A stretch of DNA of 38,471 nucleotides from Lachnospiraceae bacterium (GTDB lineage Bacteria; Bacillota_A; Clostridia; Lachnospirales; Lachnospiraceae), in contig JAEEXJ010000017.1 of assembly GCA_016291475.1 (NCBI GenBank), positions 1 through 38,471 of the forward strand. The letters are read 5' to 3'. Within the stretch, counting starts at the first letter, position 1, and every line of letters begins with the position of its first letter. The notes below the pieces were generated by a model. The model searched no databases, had not been told where the DNA came from, and saw only the letters and a list, made by a program, of their open reading frames with translations. Below, piece after piece: positions 1 to 15,525 of the stretch. The position numbers were made by a program, and so were the translations under genes.

Positions 1-1807
1 GCGTTCTCGGAAGTTTGTCGAACATAGCTTTTCTGATATCCGCAAGTGTATTGAAAGTTGCTTTATGGCTGATGCCAAGTCCCGCGGAATAGAACAGACA
101 CTTTATAACAAATCCCGACGCTCCTATAACGCACCATCTCATATACTCGGACAGATCGGTTACCCCTGCCAGAAGTTTAGTGATCACCTGAGCCGCTGCA
201 ATATAGGGAAGCATATTTCCAAGAACACCTATTACCGCAAGGATTATTGAAACAATAAGCTTGGAATGTTCTTTATAAGCAAGCTGCCACAAACGTTTAA
301 GTGAAGTGAGCTGATCATCTTTAGGTTTTCTCCTCTTCTCCTTAAGAGTACTGGTTCTGTACAGCCACCTGTCATACATATCCTGAGTAAGTTTCCCATA
401 TTCAAGAACCTTACCGCCCTGCATATAGATTAGTTCATCACAGCACTCGGCTATAAGTTCGGGATCGTGGGTAACCAGGAATATTGTCTTACCTTTATCC
501 TTTAATCCTTTGATGAGTTCCGATACCGCCTTCATATGGCGATAGTCCAAACCGCTGGTGGGTTCATCGAAAACAATTATGTCCCTTTCCGATACCACGG
601 CACTTCCTATGGCCACCCTTTGCTTTTCTCCTCCGGAAAGCGAATGAGGATGTCTTTCTTCTTTATCTGAAAGATCCAGTTCCTTAAGAACTTCTCTTAT
701 CTTCTCCTCAGAATCCTCTTCCTCCTTAACCAGGCTGAAGACCATTTCTTCCATAACTTCATCGGTAAAGAGCTGATGCCCCACATCCTGCATTACCATG
801 AATGTATTCTTAAGTCTTCTTCGTCTTGCGAATACTTCTCCACGGAATTCTATATTTCCGGTTGCCCTTCTTTCCAATCCGCAAAGAGCTCTTGCAAAAG
901 TTGACTTGCCCGCACCGTTATCTCCGACAAGTCCTATTACGGCATTGCGAGATACTCTCACGTACGGAACATTAAGAGCCTCCTGAAGTGTTCCGGGATA
1001 AATATAGTGATAGTTCGAAAGAATTATCTTCTCGTTATCTCCGACATCAAGTCCCTTAAGAGGAAGATTCATTATGTCGGAACTTCTGAGCCCCATCTCA
1101 GCCATCTTAGTGCTTCCCAGATCCGTGAGTTGTTTCGGAGTACACTCCAGTTCTATTTTCCCTTTGTTCATATAAAGAACACGGTCCGCAATGGGAAGTA
1201 CATAATACAGTCTGTGCTCCGCTATAACAACAGTCTTACCCTCCTTCTTCCAGATCTTGATTATCTCGGCCAGTTCCCTGATTGAATGGAGATCGAGATT
1301 CGAAGAAGGTTCATCCAGAACGATTATCGGCGCACCCGATGTATCGGCACATGCACAGGCCACCTTCTGCTTCTCTCCGCCGGACATCTTAAACAGATTT
1401 CTTCCAAGGAGATATTCCATTCTGAATTTATCCACGGTCCTTTCCAGTCTTTTTCTCATATCATCACGGCTCACCCCGCGATTCTCAAGAGAAAAGACCA
1501 TCTCTTCGGTGGAATCTATGTTATAGAATTGTGTTTTGGGATTTTGGAATACCGAAGCTACAAAAGGAGCCAGATCATGCAGCATGGTTTTCTGCGTATC
1601 AAGTCCGTTTACCGTTACGCATCCTGTCATCTTTCCTTTGTAATAATTCGGGATCAGGCCGTTGATCATTCGGATAAGCGTAGATTTACCGCATCCGGAT
1701 TCTCCGCACAGGAGTACCACCTCTCCCTCATTGATATGAAGGTTAAGGTCCCTGATATTATCGGCTCCGCCCTCATATTCAAAGGACACATTTTTGAAAT
1801 TGATCAT
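1..1807 (-). CDS. ECF-type duplicated ABC ATPase fused to an ABC-exporter-type membrane domain (3' end outside window)
   Basis: The reading frame starts with ATG at 1807 behind an AAAGGTG ribosome site and stays open for 602 codons to the window edge, so the C-terminus is missing. Domain 1 (about residues 1-235) has Walker A GESGCGKST (35-43), signature MSGGE (141-145) and Walker B IIVLDEP. Domain 2 (about 265-495) has GDNGAGKST near 294, LSGGEKQR near 388 and IIVFDEPTSGLD. This duplicated layout matches the EcfA/EcfA' ATPases that energise ECF importers. From about residue 499 the chain turns into a hydrophobic stretch beginning LKRLWQLAYKEHSK with at least two predicted helices, resembling the first helices of type-IV (exporter-fold) ABC membrane domains. 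The gene follows the T and S components with a 15-bp gap, so it should power them. The fusion to a half-exporter is the odd point. ATPase assignment is firm; the membrane-domain identity rests on about 100 residues. Confidence 0.85.
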   Translation of the reverse strand, partial: MINFKNVSFEYEGGADNIRDLNLHINEGEVVLLCGESGCGKSTLIRMINGLIPNYYKGKMTGCVTVNGLDTQKTMLHDLAPFVASVFQNPKTQFYNIDSTEEMVFSLENRGVSRDDMRKRLERTVDKFRMEYLLGRNLFKMSGGEKQKVACACADTSGAPIIVLDEPSSNLDLHSIRELAEIIKIWKKEGKTVVIAEHRLYYVLPIADRVLYMNKGKIELECTPKQLTDLGSTKMAEMGLRSSDIMNLPLKGLDVGDNEKIILSNYHYIYPGTLQEALNVPYVRVSRNAVIGLVGDNGAGKSTFARALCGLERRATGNIEFRGEVFARRRRLKNTFMVMQDVGHQLFTDEVMEEMVFSLVKEEEDSEEKIREVLKELDLSDKEERHPHSLSGGEKQRVAIGSAVVSERDIIVFDEPTSGLDYRHMKAVSELIKGLKDKGKTIFLVTHDPELIAECCDELIYMQGGKVLEYGKLTQDMYDRWLYRTSTLKEKRRKPKDDQLTSLKRLWQLAYKEHSKLIVSIILAVIGVLGNMLPYIAAAQVITKLLAGVTDLSEYMRWCVIGASGFVIKCLFYSAGLGISHKATFNTLADIRKAMFDKLPRT

Positions 1808-1822
1808 TTATATCACCTTTGA

Positions 1823-2539
1823 TCATCGGGATATCAGATATACCGATGTTAAAAATATAACCATAAACAAAACAGCAAAAAGATCCCTGCCCGTAAACTT
1901 AACATCCGCATAGGTTGTATGCTCCACAGGATTATCCAGGCCTCTTGAAAGTGCAGCAGCGGACAGATCATCTCCGGTATTTGCAATGGATATCATCAGG
2001 GGAACAACTCTGTATTCAATGGCTCGCATAGGATTTTCCCAGAATTTTTTTCTCGCGATGATGATCCCTCGCATAGCTGCCGCATCGTGTATTGCATGTC
2101 TTTCCTGATTCATAGTCGGAAAAAATCTGAAGATAACGGATAAGGGAATTGTGAATTTACGGCTCACTTTCATCTTGCCCAGCGCTGCTATAACTTCACT
2201 TACACTTGTGGATTTAATGATGTAATCACCACACGTGAACGCGGGTGCAAGTTTTAGTACAAGTCCTCCGAGCAGGACAACTATCATATTCAGGAACATG
2301 TTCAGCTGTATCGAAACGCGGTGCACATGTATAAACGCTGCAAGCGAAAATAAAACAAAATATTTAATCGCTCCGAGATACTGCCTGTTGCTGAGAAAAA
2401 GCAGGAAGGGTATAGTGCCCACCGCAACTGTAAACCATATATTTATATCCACCATCTCAAGAGTAGCGATGACTATGATGATGAGCAGTTTCGTTCTCGG
2501 ATCCAGTTTGAATTTTTTCTTTTCGACATATCCGTTCAT
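1823..2539 (-). CDS. ECF transporter transmembrane (T) component, EcfT/CbiQ family
   Basis: A 238-residue membrane protein with five to six hydrophobic segments, starting near residue 15 (LLIIIVIATLEMV) and ending with FAVLFMVIFLTSVYLI. Two Ala-Arg-Gly-type motifs, AAMRG (about 153-157) and AALSRG (about 196-201), sit in the cytoplasmic part. In EcfT proteins these coupling-helix motifs bind the grooves of the two ATPases. The start codon overlaps the stop of the upstream S-component gene (TAATG), implying translational coupling, and the ATPase gene follows after 15 bp. Length is near the usual 230-270 residues. The family is clear; the substrate is set by the S component and cannot be read from this protein. 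Confidence 0.88.
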   Translation of the reverse strand: MNGYVEKKKFKLDPRTKLLIIIVIATLEMVDINIWFTVAVGTIPFLLFLSNRQYLGAIKYFVLFSLAAFIHVHRVSIQLNMFLNMIVVLLGGLVLKLAPAFTCGDYIIKSTSVSEVIAALGKMKVSRKFTIPLSVIFRFFPTMNQERHAIHDAAAMRGIIIARKKFWENPMRAIEYRVVPLMISIANTGDDLSAAALSRGLDNPVEHTTYADVKFTGRDLFAVLFMVIFLTSVYLISR

Positions 2540-3123
2540 TATGCAATACCGGCTTTCTTGAAGTGCTTTTTCATCATCTTCTTAGCGAGGAAAGCTCCGC
2601 ATACGGAACCAAGAATGATCATAACGATCGCGATCGGCATAAACCATGTGGGCATGTACTTTGCAAGCTGCTCCGCATACTGATCACCCATGGATTCTCT
2701 TATACCGTCCCAATATGAAACACCTGCAAACCAGAGGTTAGCGGGACCTGCAAGTAATCCCAAAGAAAAGACAGGGTAACTTACTGCGAAACTTTTGAAC
2801 TTTTTATATCCGATGGCTTTCAGCAAAACATCAGCAAGAATGGATGCGGGAACTATGCAGATCGTACTGATGAATGTATAGCCTGAAACATACCAAAACG
2901 CTGCCATGATAAGGCCGCTTATGGTGATCATTCCGAATTTCTCTATCTTGATGTAATAAAGGCTCATGGGAATAGCGGTTATAACAGGCCCCAGAAACAT
3001 GAAGATGGGATAAAAGATCGGAATCGCATTAAACATCCCCGTAATAAATACGCAGATCGTATACAAAGCCGTATATATACCTACGGTGATCAGATCCTTA
3101 CCTGTAAGTTTATTGTTATTCAT
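2539..3123 (-). CDS. ECF transporter substrate-binding (S) component, MptD/Trep_Strep-like
   Basis: A 194-residue, strongly hydrophobic protein with about six membrane segments and a basic C-terminal tail (KKMMKKHFKK). Size, the N-terminal KLTGKDLITVGIYTALY stretch and the position directly before an EcfT gene fit the small S components of the MptD family (older name Trep_Strep, about 190 residues). The AGGAGG ribosome site at 3131-3136 is excellent. S components bind the substrate in the membrane and dock on the T/ATPase module. Substrates of this family are not well settled. A DtxR-like palindrome just upstream (3139-3156) and the exporter-type domain downstream make iron, siderophore or tetrapyrrole plausible, but that is inference. 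The ECF S-component call is likely; the exact family is moderately sure. Confidence 0.75.
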   Translation of the reverse strand: MNNNKLTGKDLITVGIYTALYTICVFITGMFNAIPIFYPIFMFLGPVITAIPMSLYYIKIEKFGMITISGLIMAAFWYVSGYTFISTICIVPASILADVLLKAIGYKKFKSFAVSYPVFSLGLLAGPANLWFAGVSYWDGIRESMGDQYAEQLAKYMPTWFMPIAIVMIILGSVCGAFLAKKMMKKHFKKAGIA

Positions 3124-3138
3124 AATATGTCCTCCTTT

Positions 3139-3156
3139 GGTTAGTTTTGCCTAACC
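3139..3156. promoter_or_regulatory. Palindrome between tetR and the S-component gene, possible DtxR-type metalloregulator site
   Basis: GGTTAG and CTAACC form a perfect 6-bp inverted repeat around TTTTGC, only a few bases upstream of the AGGAGG ribosome site of the S-component gene. The core TTAG-N6-CTAA resembles DtxR/IdeR-type boxes (TTAGG...CCTAA). A repressor here would block transcription or translation entry into the transporter genes while sparing tetR. The similarity is by eye and the site is short, so it could equally be a small RNA hairpin that hides the ribosome site. Confidence 0.35.
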
Positions 3157-3195: not shown

Positions 3196-3813
3196 TCAAA
3201 TACCCAGTAAATGTCTGTATCCGGCAATGCAATAGTCGCTTACAAGCTTGGTTTCCCGGGAAATCTCTTCGGCGCTTTTACCGTTCCTCAGGCCTTCAAA
3301 AACCGTCTTGATGAGAAAAGAAGATCCGATCTTGATGATGTTATCTGAAATTACATCCGGATTTTTGACATACTTTCCGCTAAGCTTCAGAAAGCTGATC
3401 ATACTCTTTGCTTCTTCTTCGATAAGCGAATCGATGAAGTTCTCATACCCGGTTCCCACGGAAGAATCCGCTATAAGCAAAAACACATCCCGGTTCTTAC
3501 ACACATATCGTATAAGCGATTCCGAGGAACTGAAGGTTTCTTCGAAAGCCCTGATGATATCCGCCGAAGACTTTATTTTCAGAAAGTCTTTTTTCTCCGA
3601 AGAATACATATCCGACCATTTGTCCAATACCGGCCTTACCAGACTGTCAAAAAGATCTTCCTTGCTCTCAAAATGCGCATAGAAAGCTCCGTTGGTAACT
3701 CCCGCGTCCGTACATATCTTTCTGACCGACGCATCACGGAAGCCCTTTTCCCTGAATTGAACCATGGCACTTTTCAGGATATTCTCATGTGTTTGCTTAT
3801 AATCGTATGACAT
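3196..3813 (-). CDS. TetR-family transcriptional regulator of the ECF transporter operon
   Basis: A 205-residue protein with a classic N-terminal TetR DNA-binding domain: ILKSAMVQFREKGFRDAS, then the helix-turn-helix VRKICTDAGVTNGAFYAHF (about residues 29-47) and the SKEDLF continuation. The C-terminal 140 residues are a helical ligand-binding/dimerisation domain with no recognisable ligand signature. It is the first gene of the unit that contains the S, T and ATPase genes, starts about 20 bp from a double palindrome, and is therefore very probably autoregulated through it. The inducing ligand may be the transported compound. Confidence 0.9.
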   Translation of the reverse strand: MSYDYKQTHENILKSAMVQFREKGFRDASVRKICTDAGVTNGAFYAHFESKEDLFDSLVRPVLDKWSDMYSSEKKDFLKIKSSADIIRAFEETFSSSESLIRYVCKNRDVFLLIADSSVGTGYENFIDSLIEEEAKSMISFLKLSGKYVKNPDVISDNIIKIGSSFLIKTVFEGLRNGKSAEEISRETKLVSDYCIAGYRHLLGI

Positions 3814-3832: not shown

Positions 3833-3864
3833 AATATTACTGTGTAATATTACAACGTAATATT
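3833..3864. promoter_or_regulatory. Two overlapping palindromic operators for the adjacent TetR regulator
   Basis: AATATTAC-TGT-GTAATATT occupies 3833-3851 and AATATTAC-AAC-GTAATATT occupies 3846-3864. Each has perfect 8-bp arms and a 3-bp spacer, and the two share the middle arm. The array covers the expected transcription start and touches the -10 box of the TTGACA promoter just upstream. Overlapping palindromes of this size suit cooperative binding by two TetR dimers, as known for QacR-like members. Assignment to this TetR is by position. Confidence 0.8.
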
Positions 3865-9815: not shown

Positions 9816-11486
9816 TTATTCCCACTTCCAGTCACAGATGTTACTGAGTACAACCTGTCCGTTTGCGCAATGAGGCTGGACGGGCTGTTCGCCTATATTA
9901 AGTCCGTCACGTACAAAATAGCAGTGATCCGCACGTACATACCATGCTGCGGGAACATCACCAATAAGACTTGCTCCGGACTCACCGTCCCACTGTGCAA
10001 GCTTATAATATTTATATACATCCTCGATATTATCCGAAGCCATGGCAAGGGACATGTACTCATCTACGGAAGGATTTGAATAAAAGCTTGAATTACTCCA
10101 GCCCGCGCCCCTTGTGTTAGTTGAGTTCATAAGATAAAACTCATTGGGTGTATAATCTCCTCTTCCGAACATATAAGGAGTCGAGAAAAGCCTTGGAGTT
10201 ATATCGGAATTTGCGGCACCTTCCGGAAGGATTGAAATACCAAGCGCCTTAGCCTGCTCTGCAATAGCCATTGCCATTGCCTGGCGGTTTGCGTTATTGG
10301 AGGTATAAAGAAGCGTAAACTCTGCCTTTACCCCGTCCTTCTCACGGATCCCATCACCGTCCTCATCGGTCCATCCGCCCTCTTCAAGCATGCCGATTGC
10401 CACATCAAGGCCCGAATTGGATCCATCAAGTGCGGTCTCTTCATTGAACCAGGGCATGGTATCACACATGGAGTAAGAGGCAATTCCGTATCCGTTGAAT
10501 ACGTCTCTTATAAGAGCTTCTCTATCGATTCCCACAGCAAGAGCCCGGCGGATGACCACATCACCGGTAACATTGTTTCCGATAGGGCGTCCGTCTTCGG
10601 ATGTCTTTCCTTCATCATATGTAGTGGGGAAAATAATACCGTAATTATCGATGGATTCTATGGGAACCATACGATATCCGTCAATAGACTGGGTTGCAAG
10701 ATTCTGATTGGTATAGATGATATCAACATCACCTCGCTGAGCAGCCATAAATGATGCATCATCATCCATAAAGAGGAGGATGATCTTTTTGATCTGAGGC
10801 TCTTTGCCATAGTAGTACTCATTGTACTCCCATACGCACTGCTGCCCCTTCTCCCATTCGGTCATCTTAAAGAGACCGGATCCGATGGGATTTTCTCCAT
10901 AATTGTCATCGTAATATTTTTCGGGAACAATACCGACCTTATAGGTCATGTAAAGAAATGTATAGTCGGGCTCTGATAGATGAAAAACGACGGTAGTGTC
11001 ATCGACCGTTTCGGCGTCTCTGATATTGCTAAGATCAAGGCTGGTCCCTCCGTCGCGGACCGCCTCATAAGTAAATTCAACATCACTTGCAAGAACCTTT
11101 TCTCCGTTGCTGTAGTATGCATCGTCACGGATAACAAATGTCCAGTCAAGTCCGTCTTCACTTACGTAATACTCATTGGCAAGATCGTTTGTGATCTCAC
11201 CGCCGTAAGCTTTGGTAAGAGTGCTCTGCAAGATGGGATCGAATCTCTGGCCGTATCCGGTTATGGGATTCCAGCCCGAGCTCGATTCCGAATTAACGGC
11301 TACGATAACCGTATCTTTAACCTCTCCGGAATCAACCGCGGGTGCAGCTCCCTCTCCGAATGTCACAGCATCACTTACGCTGCTCTCTGCGGTTGCACCT
11401 GCATTTGATACAGTGTTTCCGCATCCTGAGAGCGCACTTAAACAAAGCGCCATTGCAGCCGCCAAAATCTTCTTATTCAATTTCAT
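9816..11486 (-). CDS. Family 5 extracellular solute-binding lipoprotein of an Opp/Nik-type importer
   Basis: A 556-residue lipoprotein: signal MKLNKKILAAAMALCLSALSGC with lipid-modified Cys22, an acidic Ser/Ala linker to about residue 55, then an SBP_bac_5 fold. Family hallmarks are WTFVIRDDAYYSNGEKVLASDVEFTYE, the VFHLSEPDYTFLYMT region, NPIGSGLFKMTEWEKGQ, VVIRRALAVGIDREALI, and MLEEGGWTDEDGDGIREKDGVKAEF. It captures the ligand outside the cell and delivers it to the two permeases that follow. The ligand is unknown: the neighbouring ZnuA-like protein and Fur-type box point to a metal or metallophore, while the family at large mostly binds peptides. The upstream gap carries a small hairpin just before the ribosome site. 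Confidence 0.9.
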   Translation of the reverse strand: MKLNKKILAAAMALCLSALSGCGNTVSNAGATAESSVSDAVTFGEGAAPAVDSGEVKDTVIVAVNSESSSGWNPITGYGQRFDPILQSTLTKAYGGEITNDLANEYYVSEDGLDWTFVIRDDAYYSNGEKVLASDVEFTYEAVRDGGTSLDLSNIRDAETVDDTTVVFHLSEPDYTFLYMTYKVGIVPEKYYDDNYGENPIGSGLFKMTEWEKGQQCVWEYNEYYYGKEPQIKKIILLFMDDDASFMAAQRGDVDIIYTNQNLATQSIDGYRMVPIESIDNYGIIFPTTYDEGKTSEDGRPIGNNVTGDVVIRRALAVGIDREALIRDVFNGYGIASYSMCDTMPWFNEETALDGSNSGLDVAIGMLEEGGWTDEDGDGIREKDGVKAEFTLLYTSNNANRQAMAMAIAEQAKALGISILPEGAANSDITPRLFSTPYMFGRGDYTPNEFYLMNSTNTRGAGWSNSSFYSNPSVDEYMSLAMASDNIEDVYKYYKLAQWDGESGASLIGDVPAAWYVRADHCYFVRDGLNIGEQPVQPHCANGQVVLSNICDWKWE

Positions 11487-11498
11487 TTTTTATCTCCG

Positions 11499-11518
11499 AT
11501 GCGTGTCTGAGCACGCAT
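11499..11518 (-). other. Small hairpin before the solute-binding-protein gene
   Basis: ATGCGTG and CACGCAT form a perfect 7-bp stem around a 6-base loop, ending 3 bases before the GGAGAT ribosome site of the gene starting at 11486. There is no T-run, so it is not a terminator. A 5' hairpin of this kind can stabilise or process the mRNA and raise the level of the binding protein relative to the upstream gene. That role is inference. Confidence 0.45.
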
Positions 11519-11546
11519 TAATTGTTTTGATTATGTATTAAAAGTA

Positions 11547-12590
11547 TCAGTTAAGAGCCTTCTTAAGAATCTCCAGATTTGAAGTCATTACGGAAAGGTA
11601 GGTAGCTCCGTTCTTAACATCTTCGGATGTGGTTGCCTGCATTGAATCAAGTGCATAGATCTCCTGATCCTTATCCGCAGTATTGTCACGGATGGTCTGT
11701 GCGATCTTGCCGTCACTGTTTTCGATGGTAAGGATAGCATTAAGGCCGAGTTCATCTGTCTTGGTCGCCAGGAACACTACGGTCTCAAAGCTTGCTTCGG
11801 TTTCAGCGGAGCAACCTACGAATGCGGCATAATAATTTATATCATAATCATCGGTCAGATATCTGAAAGGGAATCTGTCACCGAATAAAACAGTATCGAA
11901 TGCTGAACCGTTTACAGCTTCTTTGTACTGTTCATCAAGAGCGGAAAGCTGTGCTTTGTAAGCATCGTTATTAGCCTGATAAACAGATGCATTATCGGGA
12001 TCTGCCTTTGCAAGTCCCTCTGCTATTGCATCGCATAATACGGATGCATTTCTGAGAGAAAGCCATACATGCTCATCGTACTCTACTTCCTCTTCCTCAT
12101 GATCGTGGTCGTGATCTTCATCCTCATCATGATCTCCGTCTTCATCATGGTGATCGTGATCATGTTCATCCTCTTCCTGCATTCCCTCGACTACCTCTTC
12201 CTCTTTAACGCTGTCGCCGAGAACTTCCAGGAGATTGATAACTACCATATCGGGATTAACAGCCTCTTTAAGAGCATCATCCACCCATCCGTCGGACTCA
12301 CCGCCGACATATATGAAGACATCGCAATTTGCGATCTTTAAGATATCGTCCGCAACGGGCTGGTAGCTGTGAAGATCCACACCGTTGTCAAGAAGCATGG
12401 TAACCTCTGCATCAGGCGCTTTATCTCCCAGGATCTGCATTACCCAGTCATACTCGGGGAAAATGGTTGTGACGATGGAAAGCTTATCCGAGCCTGATGT
12501 ATGTGAAGAAGCGGTGCCCTGTCCCGCGCAGGCTGTAAGAGTAAGTACGGCACAAATAATAGCAGCGATCTTTGTAAGCATTTTTTTCAT
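11547..12590 (-). CDS. Zinc/manganese-type solute-binding lipoprotein (ZnuA/AdcA-like) with His/Asp-rich loop
   Basis: A 347-residue cluster A-I metal-binding lipoprotein with signal and lipobox LTAC (Cys21). Expected metal ligands include His74 (DLHSYQP) and His174 (DEHVWLS). Between them, residues 139-170 form the acidic, His-rich loop characteristic of zinc-binding ZnuA proteins, with eight His among Asp/Glu. Where many relatives have a third His (HxAFxYL), this protein reads GDRFPFRYL (237-245), followed by DINYYAAFVGCSAETEASFET. No ZnuB permease or ZnuC ATPase is nearby; the next genes are an Opp/Nik-type transporter instead. It is co-oriented, 53 bp after the small membrane protein, behind a Fur-family box. 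It probably traps Zn(II) outside the cell; its permease partner is unclear. Confidence 0.9.
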   Translation of the reverse strand: MKKMLTKIAAIICAVLTLTACAGQGTASSHTSGSDKLSIVTTIFPEYDWVMQILGDKAPDAEVTMLLDNGVDLHSYQPVADDILKIANCDVFIYVGGESDGWVDDALKEAVNPDMVVINLLEVLGDSVKEEEVVEGMQEEDEHDHDHHDEDGDHDEDEDHDHDHEEEEVEYDEHVWLSLRNASVLCDAIAEGLAKADPDNASVYQANNDAYKAQLSALDEQYKEAVNGSAFDTVLFGDRFPFRYLTDDYDINYYAAFVGCSAETEASFETVVFLATKTDELGLNAILTIENSDGKIAQTIRDNTADKDQEIYALDSMQATTSEDVKNGATYLSVMTSNLEILKKALN

Positions 12591-12643
12591 AATTCAAAAT
12601 TCCTCCATGAACAAAAAACATATATAGACTGATCCGGACAGGA

Positions 12644-12955
12644 TCAATTATTCATCCGGATCTTTTCTTCAACCGGTGAAAGCACGGTGACGAAAGGCAT
12701 TACCGTCTTCACGCACAGAGCCATAACCATATAAGCTATCGAAGCAATGCATGCAATGGGCATTGCACCTCCGATGCGGTTCAGTACCGCCTCACAAACC
12801 TCAAGAGTGGCACATACGGGGCAATCCTCTTCGTGACACTCATGAATGCTTTCCGCCGCAACAAAATAAGCGGACATGAGAGTGAGGATCAGCAGCAGCG
12901 CACAGACAGGGAGGGAAACAAGCGCTGTGAACTTGAATATTTTATTGTCCGTCAC
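12644..12955 (-). CDS. Small Cys/His-motif membrane protein heading the metal operon
   Basis: I take the start as GTG at 12955, because a strong AGGAGGT ribosome site (12963-12969) lies 7 bases upstream; the in-frame ATG at 13003 has no such site and falls on the promoter. This gives 103 residues: a first membrane helix (about 10-35), an extracytoplasmic loop with His38, Cys40, His41, Cys45, Cys48 and Cys54 (HECHEEDCPVC and EVC), a second helix (about 62-85) and a short tail. The two helices with a Cys/His cluster between them suggest metal or thiol-disulfide sensing or metal hand-over at the membrane. I do not recognise a named family. It is the first gene behind the Fur-type box, so it is probably metal-regulated with the ZnuA-like gene that follows. 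Confidence 0.75.
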   Translation of the reverse strand: MTDNKIFKFTALVSLPVCALLLILTLMSAYFVAAESIHECHEEDCPVCATLEVCEAVLNRIGGAMPIACIASIAYMVMALCVKTVMPFVTVLSPVEEKIRMNN

Positions 12956-12962
12956 TGCCGCT

Positions 12963-12969
12963 ACCTCCT
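12963..12969 (-). promoter_or_regulatory. Ribosome binding site that fixes a GTG start
   Basis: AGGAGGT on the minus strand, 7 bases before GTG at 12955. It decides the start of the small membrane protein in favour of the GTG over the upstream ATG at 13003. Confidence 0.8.
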
Positions 12970-13002
12970 CGGTTAGTAATGCAAAACTGAAAACCATTCC
13001 CA

Positions 13003-13031
13003 ATTTTAACCGTGAGCCCCTTTTCTGTCAA
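13003..13031 (-). promoter_or_regulatory. SigA-type promoter of the metal-transport operon
   Basis: Minus-strand -35 TTGACA (13026-13031) and -10 TAAAAT (13003-13008) are separated by exactly 17 bp. Transcription would start near 12996, about 40 bases before the GTG start of the small membrane protein. A Fur-family palindrome lies 6 bp upstream of the -35 box. Confidence 0.75.
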
Positions 13032-13037
13032 TAAGAA

Positions 13038-13054
13038 TTGAAAATCATTTTCAA
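13038..13054. promoter_or_regulatory. Fur-family (Fur/Zur-like) operator
   Basis: TTGAAAATCATTTTCAA is a perfect 8-1-8 palindrome. Its 7-1-7 core TGAAAAT-C-ATTTTCA differs from the classic Fur core (TGATAAT-N-ATTATCA) at one symmetric position. It sits immediately upstream of the TTGACA promoter of the operon containing the ZnuA-like gene. Gene content argues for a zinc-sensing member (Zur), while the motif itself looks more Fur-like. Which family member binds cannot be decided here. Confidence 0.75.
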
Positions 13055-13077
13055 ATTTTACATTTATCCTTCCGGGC

Positions 13078-13115
13078 AAAAAAAAATCCCCTCAGAGCTT
13101 TGAGCCCGAGGGGAT
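13078..13115 (-). terminator. Intrinsic terminator of the galactoside operon
   Basis: On the minus strand ATCCCCTC and GAGGGGAT pair around a 14-base loop and are followed directly by nine T. It lies about 13 bp after the stop of the alpha-galactosidase gene and separates that operon from the metal operon. Confidence 0.9.
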
Positions 13116-13128
13116 CTGTACAACGGTT

Positions 13129-15525
13129 TTATTCTTTTTCCATAAAATAGATCCTGGATGCGAAATCGGGGAAATGCCTGACTTCGGAATTAAATCCCGT
13201 ACCTCCGAAAGCCGCTTTCAAATGAACTCCCGAATACATCAGGGCAGATCCCGAAGTAACGATATCTTCGTTTTCCGTATCCATCTTCACGAATTTTGCG
13301 ACTATATCGATGAGCATACCGTCCTGCTTGAGATGAACCGGCGAAACGGTATTGACCAGATCTCCGAATTCCCTGACATCGATCTTAAGAGATCTGTTAT
13401 AGAAGTGATACATCTCATCTTCATCCAGTCCCTTCGCAAAATATGTGTGGAACTGCGAATTGGGAACCACCAGTTTCTGCATAAGGAATCCCACAGCCTT
13501 ATCGCGGTCCTTGGAAACAACGGTCCACTCGGTAAGATTGCCCTCAGCACCCGGATCGGGTGATACACCGTTTACAGGAAGTGAGCCCGCGCTCCGCCCG
13601 CGGTTAAATTCACCGAACTGCATGGTATATCTCCACTTTTTGTAAAGTTCGATCTGAGCCTTTATCGCCGCAAGGTCTTCTTTTCTCATATCACAGAGAT
13701 TGAGTTCATATCCGAAGACTCCGAAAGCAGCAACGTTGAATCTGGTCTCAAGGGATGTCTCGCGAAGTGTCTGATGGTTGGGGCTTGCGGATACATGTGC
13801 GGAAACCGTCGACATAGGATATCCGTAGCTGTAACCTGTCTGAATGGCTGCCCTGCACACGGGATCCGTATCGTCACTAGCCCAGATCTGAGGGAAGTAA
13901 CTGAGTATTCCGAGGTCGAACCTGTTTCCGCCGGATGCACATCCTTCAAAAAGAATACGGGGAAACTTTTCGGTGAGTCTCTTCAAAACGGAGTACAGGC
14001 CGCAGATATATCTGTGGAATACCTCACCCTGCTTTTCTGCGGGAAGGTTCTGTGAATATACATCAGTAAAAGTTCTGTTCATATCCCACTTTACATAAGA
14101 GATATCTGCGGATGAAAATACTTTACTGAGTTTATCTACGATGTAATCGCAGACCTCGGGATTGGTAAGATCAAGGATCCTCTGCCATCTTCCTTCGGAA
14201 TGATCTCTTCCGGGTATCTCTATCGCCCAATCGGGATGAGCCTTATATAATCCGGAATTCTCGGAGATCATCTCGGGCTCTACCCAGATACCGAATCTCA
14301 TTCCGAGGGCAGTGATCTTATCCGCAAGGGATTTAAGGCCTCCGGGAAGTTTCTTGGGATTAACATCCCAGTCTCCAAGACTGGAATGATCGTCGTTTCT
14401 TTCTCCAAACCAGCCATCATCCATTACAAGAAGTTCTATTCCGACTTCCTTACCGGCTTTTGCAAGTTTTACGAGTTTTCTTTCATCGATATCAAAATAT
14501 GCCGCTTCCCAGCTGTTTAAGAGAACGGGACGCTCTTTCTTCTTCCATTCGCCTCTTACTACATGCTCACGTACGAAGCGGTGCATATGATGACTAAGTC
14601 CGTTAAAGCCTTCCGAAGAATATGACATAACGGCCTCGGGTGATTCGAATTTTTCTCCCGGTGATAATCTGAATTCAAAACCGTCGGGATTGATACCCGA
14701 TATAAATCTTGTTTTTCCGAAAGGAGATATTTCCGCAGCTTCGTAATGGTTACCGCTGTAGATCAGGTTAAATCCGTATACCTCACCCGCATCTTCCGAA
14801 GTATGCACCGGATGCAGCATTACGAATGGATTAGCCCTGTGGGATGATTCACCGCTTCTTGAAGAGTTAATATACTTGCCCCTTACAAGAGGAATCGAAG
14901 ACTTCTGCATCTCCCTTGCCCAGGCACCTCCGAAAGTGGTCATCATATAACCCATTCTGTCAAAATCGATCTGAGTGCTCATGAGTTTTTTGAGAACTAT
15001 CCCTGAGTCCGATGTATTTTCAAGCACGGACATTCTGCAGATGCAGTCGGAATCCTCATACACATAATAGTGAAGGTGCAGTTTAACGCCTTTTATTTTC
15101 TCAACAAGGGTAATGCAAAGATGCTCGCACTTTCCGCTCTCATCATAGGAAACCGGAAGCGTATCCGAGACAGGCTCCTTATCATCGATAACAAAACTGT
15201 CATACTGAAAATCACATGTGGATGAACCGTCATCAAAAGTAATATCCACAAAGGGATCCCTCAGATCTCCTTTTCCGTAAGAGCTCATTTCAAGTCTTAC
15301 ATCCTCAAGGGAATATCCGCAGTGATCATTGTCATACACACAAGTATTGCCCGGTGCAAAGGCATGTTTTTCTATAAGAGAATCAAGTGCTCCAACGCCT
15401 TCTCCCAGCTTTATCCGGCGTCCGTAATACAAATGCTCGAGCTGACCTGTAGGAAGAAGCGTAATTGCATAAGTGGTCTTTGGTGTATCAAGCACCCACG
15501 CATGATCATATATATGACGAATCAT
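13129..15525 (-). CDS. GH36 alpha-galactosidase
   Basis: A 798-residue retaining exo-enzyme that removes terminal alpha-linked galactose, for example from melibiose, raffinose-family sugars or galactomannan side chains. The N-terminal beta-sandwich runs to about residue 330 and is followed by the (beta/alpha)8 barrel with NSWEAAYFDI, LLVMDDGWFGERNDD, WVEPEMISENS, the nucleophile Asp481 in VKWDMNR, and the acid/base Asp551/552 in WASDDTDP. CASGGNRFD (529-537) is the typical GH36 substrate-binding loop. No signal peptide is visible, so it is intracellular. It is somewhat longer than the usual 730-750 residues. An AGGAG site precedes the ATG, 12 bp after the preceding gene, and an intrinsic terminator follows, making it the last gene of the operon. 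Confidence 0.95.
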   Translation of the reverse strand: MIRHIYDHAWVLDTPKTTYAITLLPTGQLEHLYYGRRIKLGEGVGALDSLIEKHAFAPGNTCVYDNDHCGYSLEDVRLEMSSYGKGDLRDPFVDITFDDGSSTCDFQYDSFVIDDKEPVSDTLPVSYDESGKCEHLCITLVEKIKGVKLHLHYYVYEDSDCICRMSVLENTSDSGIVLKKLMSTQIDFDRMGYMMTTFGGAWAREMQKSSIPLVRGKYINSSRSGESSHRANPFVMLHPVHTSEDAGEVYGFNLIYSGNHYEAAEISPFGKTRFISGINPDGFEFRLSPGEKFESPEAVMSYSSEGFNGLSHHMHRFVREHVVRGEWKKKERPVLLNSWEAAYFDIDERKLVKLAKAGKEVGIELLVMDDGWFGERNDDHSSLGDWDVNPKKLPGGLKSLADKITALGMRFGIWVEPEMISENSGLYKAHPDWAIEIPGRDHSEGRWQRILDLTNPEVCDYIVDKLSKVFSSADISYVKWDMNRTFTDVYSQNLPAEKQGEVFHRYICGLYSVLKRLTEKFPRILFEGCASGGNRFDLGILSYFPQIWASDDTDPVCRAAIQTGYSYGYPMSTVSAHVSASPNHQTLRETSLETRFNVAAFGVFGYELNLCDMRKEDLAAIKAQIELYKKWRYTMQFGEFNRGRSAGSLPVNGVSPDPGAEGNLTEWTVVSKDRDKAVGFLMQKLVVPNSQFHTYFAKGLDEDEMYHFYNRSLKIDVREFGDLVNTVSPVHLKQDGMLIDIVAKFVKMDTENEDIVTSGSALMYSGVHLKAAFGGTGFNSEVRHFPDFASRIYFMEKE

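Follow-up and report, generated by a model that had tools for sequence, protein, structure and literature searches.

In the equibactin locus of Streptococcus equi, eqbH is annotated as an S component, eqbI as a T component, eqbJ as a 'Duplicated ATPase', and eqbA as an iron-dependent repressor, whereas eqbK and eqbL are listed as a heterodimeric efflux ATP-binding cassette (ABC) transporter (table in PMC8754150). Most equibactin-linked 55Fe accumulation requires eqbHIJ; EqbK and EqbL share ~29% identity with YbtP and YbtQ, and the role of this second pair was left open in the 2008 study (PMC3672683). No later test of that role turned up in a limited search of the open-licence literature. Here, we describe a gene in which a double ATPase of the energy-coupling factor (ECF) type and an exporter-fold ABC half-transporter form one polypeptide. 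The gene lies at the left edge of a stretch of 38,471 nucleotides (hereafter the window) from a Lachnospiraceae bacterium (GenBank assembly GCA_016291475.1, contig JAEEXJ010000017.1, positions 1 to 38,471).

We read the operon to which it belongs, with a probability of about 0.72, as an iron-repressed operon of the EqbHIJKL type, serving the uptake of an iron chelate (a siderophore or a haem-like compound), in which the counterparts of eqbJ and eqbK have been fused. In a limited search of the open-licence literature, the fusion was found in no paper.

The fused gene

The reading frame at positions 2-1807 of the minus strand runs for 602 codons without a stop and is still open at the window edge; the remaining ~473 codons, a size taken from relatives, lie beyond it. 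Its parts are:

2..1807, minus strand: fused gene EcfA-EcfA'-transmembrane domain (TMD)-nucleotide-binding domain (NBD), 5' part, 602 codons (open reading frame [ORF]; Pfam and NCBIfam)
1064..1804, minus strand: ECF ATPase domain 1, residues 2-248 (TIGR04520/TIGR04521 at 2-248)
368..1030, minus strand: ECF ATPase domain 2, residues ~260-480 (PF00005 at 284-418; TIGR02673 at 263-465)
305..349, minus strand: linker of ~15 residues, residues ~487-501 (disordered in the predicted model of the homologue P0001)
2..304, minus strand: start of the exporter-fold TMD, first helices only (homology to P0001, by PF00664 and IrtA/YbtP matches)

Both ATPase domains are found as PF00005 stretches in a Pfam scan of the window protein, and TIGR04520 matches it in two stretches with 297 bits, its full-protein cut-off of 315 not being reached. 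The linker region of the P0001 model has a predicted local distance difference test score (pLDDT) below 50 at residues 492-497. The window protein is confirmed as one chain in which a pair of EcfA-type ATPases is joined by a linker to the beginning of an exporter-fold TMD.

The complete gene in relatives

The left side of the gene was checked in relatives by a scan of genome contigs, which yielded nine loci (L001-L009). Five of them (L001-L005, three labelled Saccharofermentans and two Lachnospiraceae) contain an uninterrupted frame of 1075 amino acids, and the encoded proteins are 73-78% identical to the window protein in the best segment (query residues 1-601). L007 and L008 have a separate double-ATPase gene (490-499 amino acids) with half-transporter pairs nearby. 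The short contig of L006 encodes a double ATPase of 472 residues, and the ABC protein of L009 is distantly related. A preliminary description, made from the letters of the window alone, had proposed that the ECF double ATPase continues without a stop into an exporter-fold half-transporter, and the 1075-residue genes bear this out; the stop or frameshift in the linker that it named as the observation to set against the proposal occurs in none of the five relatives.

In P0001, a complete homologue of 1075 amino acids, PF00664 spans residues 516-787 (1-273 of its 274 model positions) and PF00005 is found three times; these include the ABC_membrane and third ATPase domains for which the same description had suggested a profile search. 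The second half-exporter gene that it had proposed to look for follows the fused gene in all five loci, and S and T genes precede the fused gene in the four whose contig reaches that far (L002-L005; that of L001 does not). This second half-transporter gene, with a likely start at L004:8046, overlaps the fused gene by 4 nucleotides and has AGGAGG 10 nucleotides ahead. The protein encoded directly after P0001 (P0002) is a half-transporter with PF00664 and PF00005. For brevity, we call the first half-transporter of such a pair, here the fused one, X1 and the second X2.

When residues 1-640 of P0001 were used as a protein query, the matches at E 1e-30 numbered at least 657 among 7996 scored candidates. 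Among the matches listed, 116 of 120 database proteins measure 1069-1156 amino acids; their source names include Lachnospiraceae, Butyrivibrio, Saccharofermentans, Ruminococcus, and one Treponemataceae bin, and none of the source-given names mentions the fusion. The Walker A Lys, Q-loop Gln, signature SGG, Walker B Asp-Glu, and switch His are invariant in all three ATPases of 40 aligned fused proteins, as are the same catalytic columns in an alignment of 22 X2 proteins, and the predicted complex would therefore have four complete ATPase domains.

The kind of half-transporter

Among solved half-size transporters, the fused X1 is, by sequence comparison, closest to the siderophore importers YbtP and IrtA. 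The best half-size solved relatives of P0001 are IrtA (274.1 bits) and YbtP (273.7 bits), and a profile built from 29 X1 proteins scores YbtP at 514.7, IrtA at 462.7, YbtQ at 462.2, Sav1866 at 435.9, and TM288 at 417.0 bits; full-length chains of the P-glycoprotein type outscore these half-size hits, their two matched stretches being added up. For three control half-exporters from the genome of L004, the best half-size hits are TM288 (521 bits), TM287 (514 bits), and TM288 (373 bits), with YbtP and IrtA absent among the best 60 matches listed. The affinity of X2 is less distinct: its profile gives YbtQ 441 versus Sav1866 440 bits, and P0002 alone gives YbtP 275.9, YbtQ 260.7, and Sav1866 248.5 bits.

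In structural comparison, residues 499-1070 of the predicted P0001 model match both IrtA and YbtP. With Foldseek, IrtA (9fw3_A) is the first half-size match of this model, at rank 49 among the best 50 listed (target template modelling score 0.84, 4.0 Å, 30% identity). The comparison with importers of the IrtAB type, drawn in the preliminary description, holds. We infer that a P0001-type X1 and a P0002-type X2 pair as a heterodimer.

An iron box before the S gene

Upstream of the S gene of the window lies a palindromic element:

3140..3155, no strand assigned: iron box GTTAG-N6-CTAAC, 16 nucleotides upstream of the S start (chance expectation for the window, 0.01)

The box was first seen in the window and in L002-L008, and was searched for in the 200 nucleotides upstream of the S gene or in its first 30 nucleotides. 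It is exact at 50 of 93 S-gene readings, with one mismatch at 10, two at 2, and three or more at 31. Counted by distinct S protein, the exact box precedes 49 of 90 S genes, or 42 of 82 once the eight discovery loci are left out. By comparison, 29 sets of permuted arms matched on average 0.03, and at most 1, of the 93 readings. In eight genomes, the box occurs 2-22 times per genome versus 0-4 times for the reversed pattern.

Genes beside the box were collected from L004-L007 and an additional 40 regions in six genomes. This incomplete set has 77 boxes (three counted twice, because L137 and L138 duplicate sections of L004) and comprises 71 distinct proteins, including some from closely related genomes. 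Their Pfam families include ABC_tran (15), ABC_membrane (10), S component (6), FeoA (5), FeoB (4), DtxR (4), TetR (3), ZIP (2), enolase (2), and phosphoglycerate-mutase-type proteins (2), among others. The box-linked DtxR-type protein of relatives is short (e.g. 118 amino acids for the L139 gene).

EqbA, the DtxR-like repressor of S. equi, has an operator with the same box core at eqbB, and in gel shifts it required the palindrome, with binding enhanced by Fe2+ and Zn2+ and less so by Mn2+ (PMC3672683). Since the box is shared with the EqbA operator and stands at feoA, feoB, and dtxR genes in relatives, the operon most likely encodes an iron-regulated importer of an iron chelate. Its link to iron, from regulation and neighbourhood together, is well supported. 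Genes for enolase and phosphoglycerate-mutase-type proteins are preceded by iron boxes in two loci (L005:5934-5949 and 14639-14729; L174:3906-4043), so that glycolytic genes may belong to the iron regulon.

Recurrence of the fusion

The double-ATPase part was searched for in 299 genomes of the family to which the genome of L004 belongs and in 391 genomes of its class, with only four or five candidates scored per genome. A match at E 1e-80 is present in 52 of 299 and 44 of 391 genomes, respectively; fusions, taken as an open frame of at least 1000 amino acids under the match, occur in five genomes of the family set (G004, G018, G186, G211, and G274) and two of the class set (G004 and G506). Eighty regions, hand-picked among the better-scoring rows with the other rows left out, were examined together with L001-L008 and the window; the resulting set of 95 ORFs, each for a double ATPase or a fusion, includes a few that are truncated or uncertain. 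Eleven of these are fused, 50 have a half-transporter downstream, 21 have one upstream only, and 12 have none, the cut window making up the total; 82 of the 95 are thus fused to a half-transporter or have one in the same-strand neighbourhood.

The double EcfA-EcfA' chain is the form in the surveyed loci, which, the query itself being a double ATPase, says only that this form is common. The preliminary description had regarded the hybrid as a departure from ECF importers with stand-alone EcfA and EcfA'; what is unusual is the join to a half-transporter and not the double chain, which also exists as eqbJ. Double ATPase and half-transporter are in-frame and 0-15 nucleotides apart in 10 of 30 tight split pairs (L071, L075, L081, L086, L088, L091, L094, L105, L106, and L135). 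Read-through at these ten loci would give the fusion, but the spacing is not enough to argue for it.

The main tree was built from 55 double-ATPase parts hand-chosen from 110; near-copies were omitted, as were seven rows on long branches, of which two are fused. Its 18 fused rows imply 7 changes, and well-supported branches force no fewer than 6 of these; a single origin of the fusion appears in 0% of 200 bootstrap trees, and constraining the fused rows to one clade lowers the log-likelihood by 472 (approximately unbiased test, p 0.000143). The 28 fused rows of the 110-row tree need 9 changes, at least 6 of them forced. A fast tree of 149 half-transporters places all 21 fused ones in the X1 clade, with at least 7 forced changes. 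Such changes may be gains or losses, and gene transfer between species is possible. Judged from these trees, the joint has arisen or disappeared repeatedly, and its partner was the first half-transporter in all cases examined. A ribosome-site-like sequence and a start codon are kept at the joint of other-lineage fusions (L107, L080, and L109), where the fused and the free half-transporter could therefore both be made; no shared internal start is present in the linker within the window clade.

The fusion may be neutral operon compaction, in which a stop codon was lost and the joined proteins work like separate ones, a tentative account that we hold at somewhat less than even odds and that is compatible with the other readings. 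It fits the common order AA'-X1-X2 (with the half-transporter downstream in 50 of the 95 ORFs), the in-frame split pairs, and the start retained at the joint in the three other-lineage fusions. The persistence of the fusion in many diverged proteins with several state changes, and the lack of a shared start at the joint in the window clade, speak against it, although neutrality remains compatible with both.

Mechanism and direction of transport

Under the EqbHIJKL-type reading, a short DtxR-type repressor, presumed to bind the box in this organism, would leave its site before the S gene under iron limitation. Within the membrane, the S protein would bind the putative iron chelate for inward transport by the ECF motor, which consists of T and the paired ATPase domains 1 and 2. 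The TMD and third ATPase of the fused chain would pair with the product of the next gene to form a YbtPQ-like heterodimeric transporter, which the ~15-residue linker would hold beside the ECF proteins in a presumptive physical complex. This pair most likely acts on the same ligand and would provide a second inward route.

Inward work by the half-transporters is somewhat favoured, and outward work or work in recycling is clearly less probable. The main evidence against an inward role comes from S. equi, in which deletion of eqbKL did not prevent iron toxicity and made the supernatant twofold less active, leading the authors to suggest efflux (PMC3672683). The preliminary description had considered a two-stage metal or haem importer conceivable; iron has since become well supported, whereas the deletion argues against the half-transporters being needed for import, and the interpretation in that description is, as a whole, partly supported.

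The same deletion data fit coupled import and export, in which the ECF part imports the ferric siderophore and the tethered pair exports the iron-free (recycled) or a self-made siderophore. Non-ribosomal peptide synthetase (NRPS) genes point the same way in other lineages: L100:5714-9082, with condensation, AMP-binding, and carrier domains, lies downstream of an unfused S-T-AA' set in G211, and condensation domains over the cut-off occur in two of five other-lineage fusion genomes (G211, in several frames, and G018, in a frame of 462 amino acids). On the other hand, none of the five window-type fusion genomes (G001-G005) has one over the cut-off, G004 and G005 having one weak match each below it; overall, 5 of 18 genomes have such a domain over the cut-off (completeness unstated throughout). 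X1 is closest to importers, and iron boxes also adjoin X1-type genes where S and T were not found (L143, L146, L149, L151, L159, L169, L170, L172, and L176), in regions spanning 2-7 kb beyond which S or T may lie. We regard this coupling as unlikely.

A more far-reaching reading is quite doubtful. It would make the ECF importer and the YbtPQ-like transporter covalently one supercomplex of four ATPases, assembled several times independently in evolution, with either ligand hand-over or an import/export shuttle for a siderophore that is not self-made.

Haem traffic, with haem imported by the ECF part, excess porphyrin or haem exported by the half-transporters, and TetR as haem sensor, is distinctly improbable: a haem ECF importer is described in Staphylococcus lugdunensis (PMC7299338) and a conserved site before tetR allows a ligand-sensing role, but the box groups the unit with feo and dtxR genes, which denotes iron starvation and not haem excess. 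Finally, a sequencing error (which the preliminary description had asked to be checked at about positions 340-420), a frameshift, or an assembly chimera is rejected as virtually excluded, because the same frame is open in the assemblies of L001-L005 and 116 of the 120 listed proteins are full-size, and nothing in support of such an artefact was found.

Neighbouring genes

In transcriptional order, the genes are tetR, S, T, and the fused gene; S, T, and TetR are those already recognized in the preliminary description.

1823..2539, minus strand: EcfT component with two RG motifs, at residues 157 and 199 (PF02361, 51.6 bits)
2539..3123, minus strand: S component, MptD family (TIGR02185, 105.6 bits, cut-off 76.45; PF09605, 161 bits)
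3196..3813, minus strand: TetR-family regulator (PF00440)
3836..3861, no strand assigned: likely TetR operator ATTAC-N3-GTAATATTAC-N3-GTAAT, 22 nucleotides before tetR

The RG motifs of the T protein (AMRG at 157 and LSRG at 199) are presumably its coupling motifs. Surveyed T proteins have two or more xRG motifs in 66 of 90 cases, one in 22, and none in 2. Against TIGR02454 (cobalt CbiQ), the window T protein scores 19.9 bits, far under the cut-off of 111.8. The predicted TetR site is found 21-23 nucleotides before tetR in all six loci compared (the window and L002-L006).

Elsewhere in the window, a gene for a ZnuA-type metal-binding protein (11550-12590; PF01297, E 2e-64) adjoins peptide-type transporter genes (SBP_bac_5 and BPD_transp_1). 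In L004, the fused operon is followed by a second TetR gene and a half-transporter pair with its own iron box (10644-14215), and preceded by a frame (1308-2153) whose start resembles that of a leucine-carboxyl-methyltransferase-like gene (PF04072) that stands under an iron box in L145 (2077-2913).

Comparison with known systems

One operator motif ties widespread, little-characterised rumen and gut transporters to iron. The covalent fusion in several lineages, with X1 in every examined case, suggests that the two transporters are able to function in close contact; it also offers a single construct for testing complex formation, hand-over, and direction.

The operon shares exporter-fold half-transporters with the yersiniabactin importer YbtPQ, YbtP scoring highest among the half-size proteins against the X1 profile, and differs from it in the fusion of ECF ATPases to a half-transporter; YbtPQ is not known to have an ECF partner. 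An exporter-fold half is likewise shared with the mycobactin importer IrtAB. IrtA carries an N-terminal siderophore-interaction domain (SID; the title of structure 6tej includes 'devoid SID'), whereas the N-terminus of P0001 consists of two ECF ATPases, which take up residues 1-480, and no SID was seen among the 25 of 27 Pfam families listed for this protein.

LhaSTA of S. lugdunensis is likewise an ECF importer under iron regulation, encoded by S, T, and A genes; the passages on it name these three genes and no half-transporter, and its demonstrated substrate is haem (PMC7299338). The equibactin-like cluster of the Clostridioides difficile element 023_CTn1 lies beside siderophore genes and combines two ABC ATP-binding proteins with an AraC regulator, another ABC protein, an ECF protein, and a membrane protein, but its genes, as described, are separate and in a different order (PMC6814731).

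Compared by order and annotation, the operon and S. equi EqbHIJ, EqbK, and EqbL have the same succession of S, T, double ATPase, and two half-transporters, and the equibactin locus likewise has the box core GTTAG-N6-CTAAC under a DtxR-like repressor. The window operon differs in its additional TetR gene and in its fusion, EqbJ and EqbK being encoded by separate genes within an NRPS siderophore locus. It is best read, on this comparison, as a fused variant of the S. equi gene set for iron-chelate uptake: the ECF importer and the YbtPQ-like pair that adjoin as separate genes in the annotated eqb locus are here tied together in one protein.
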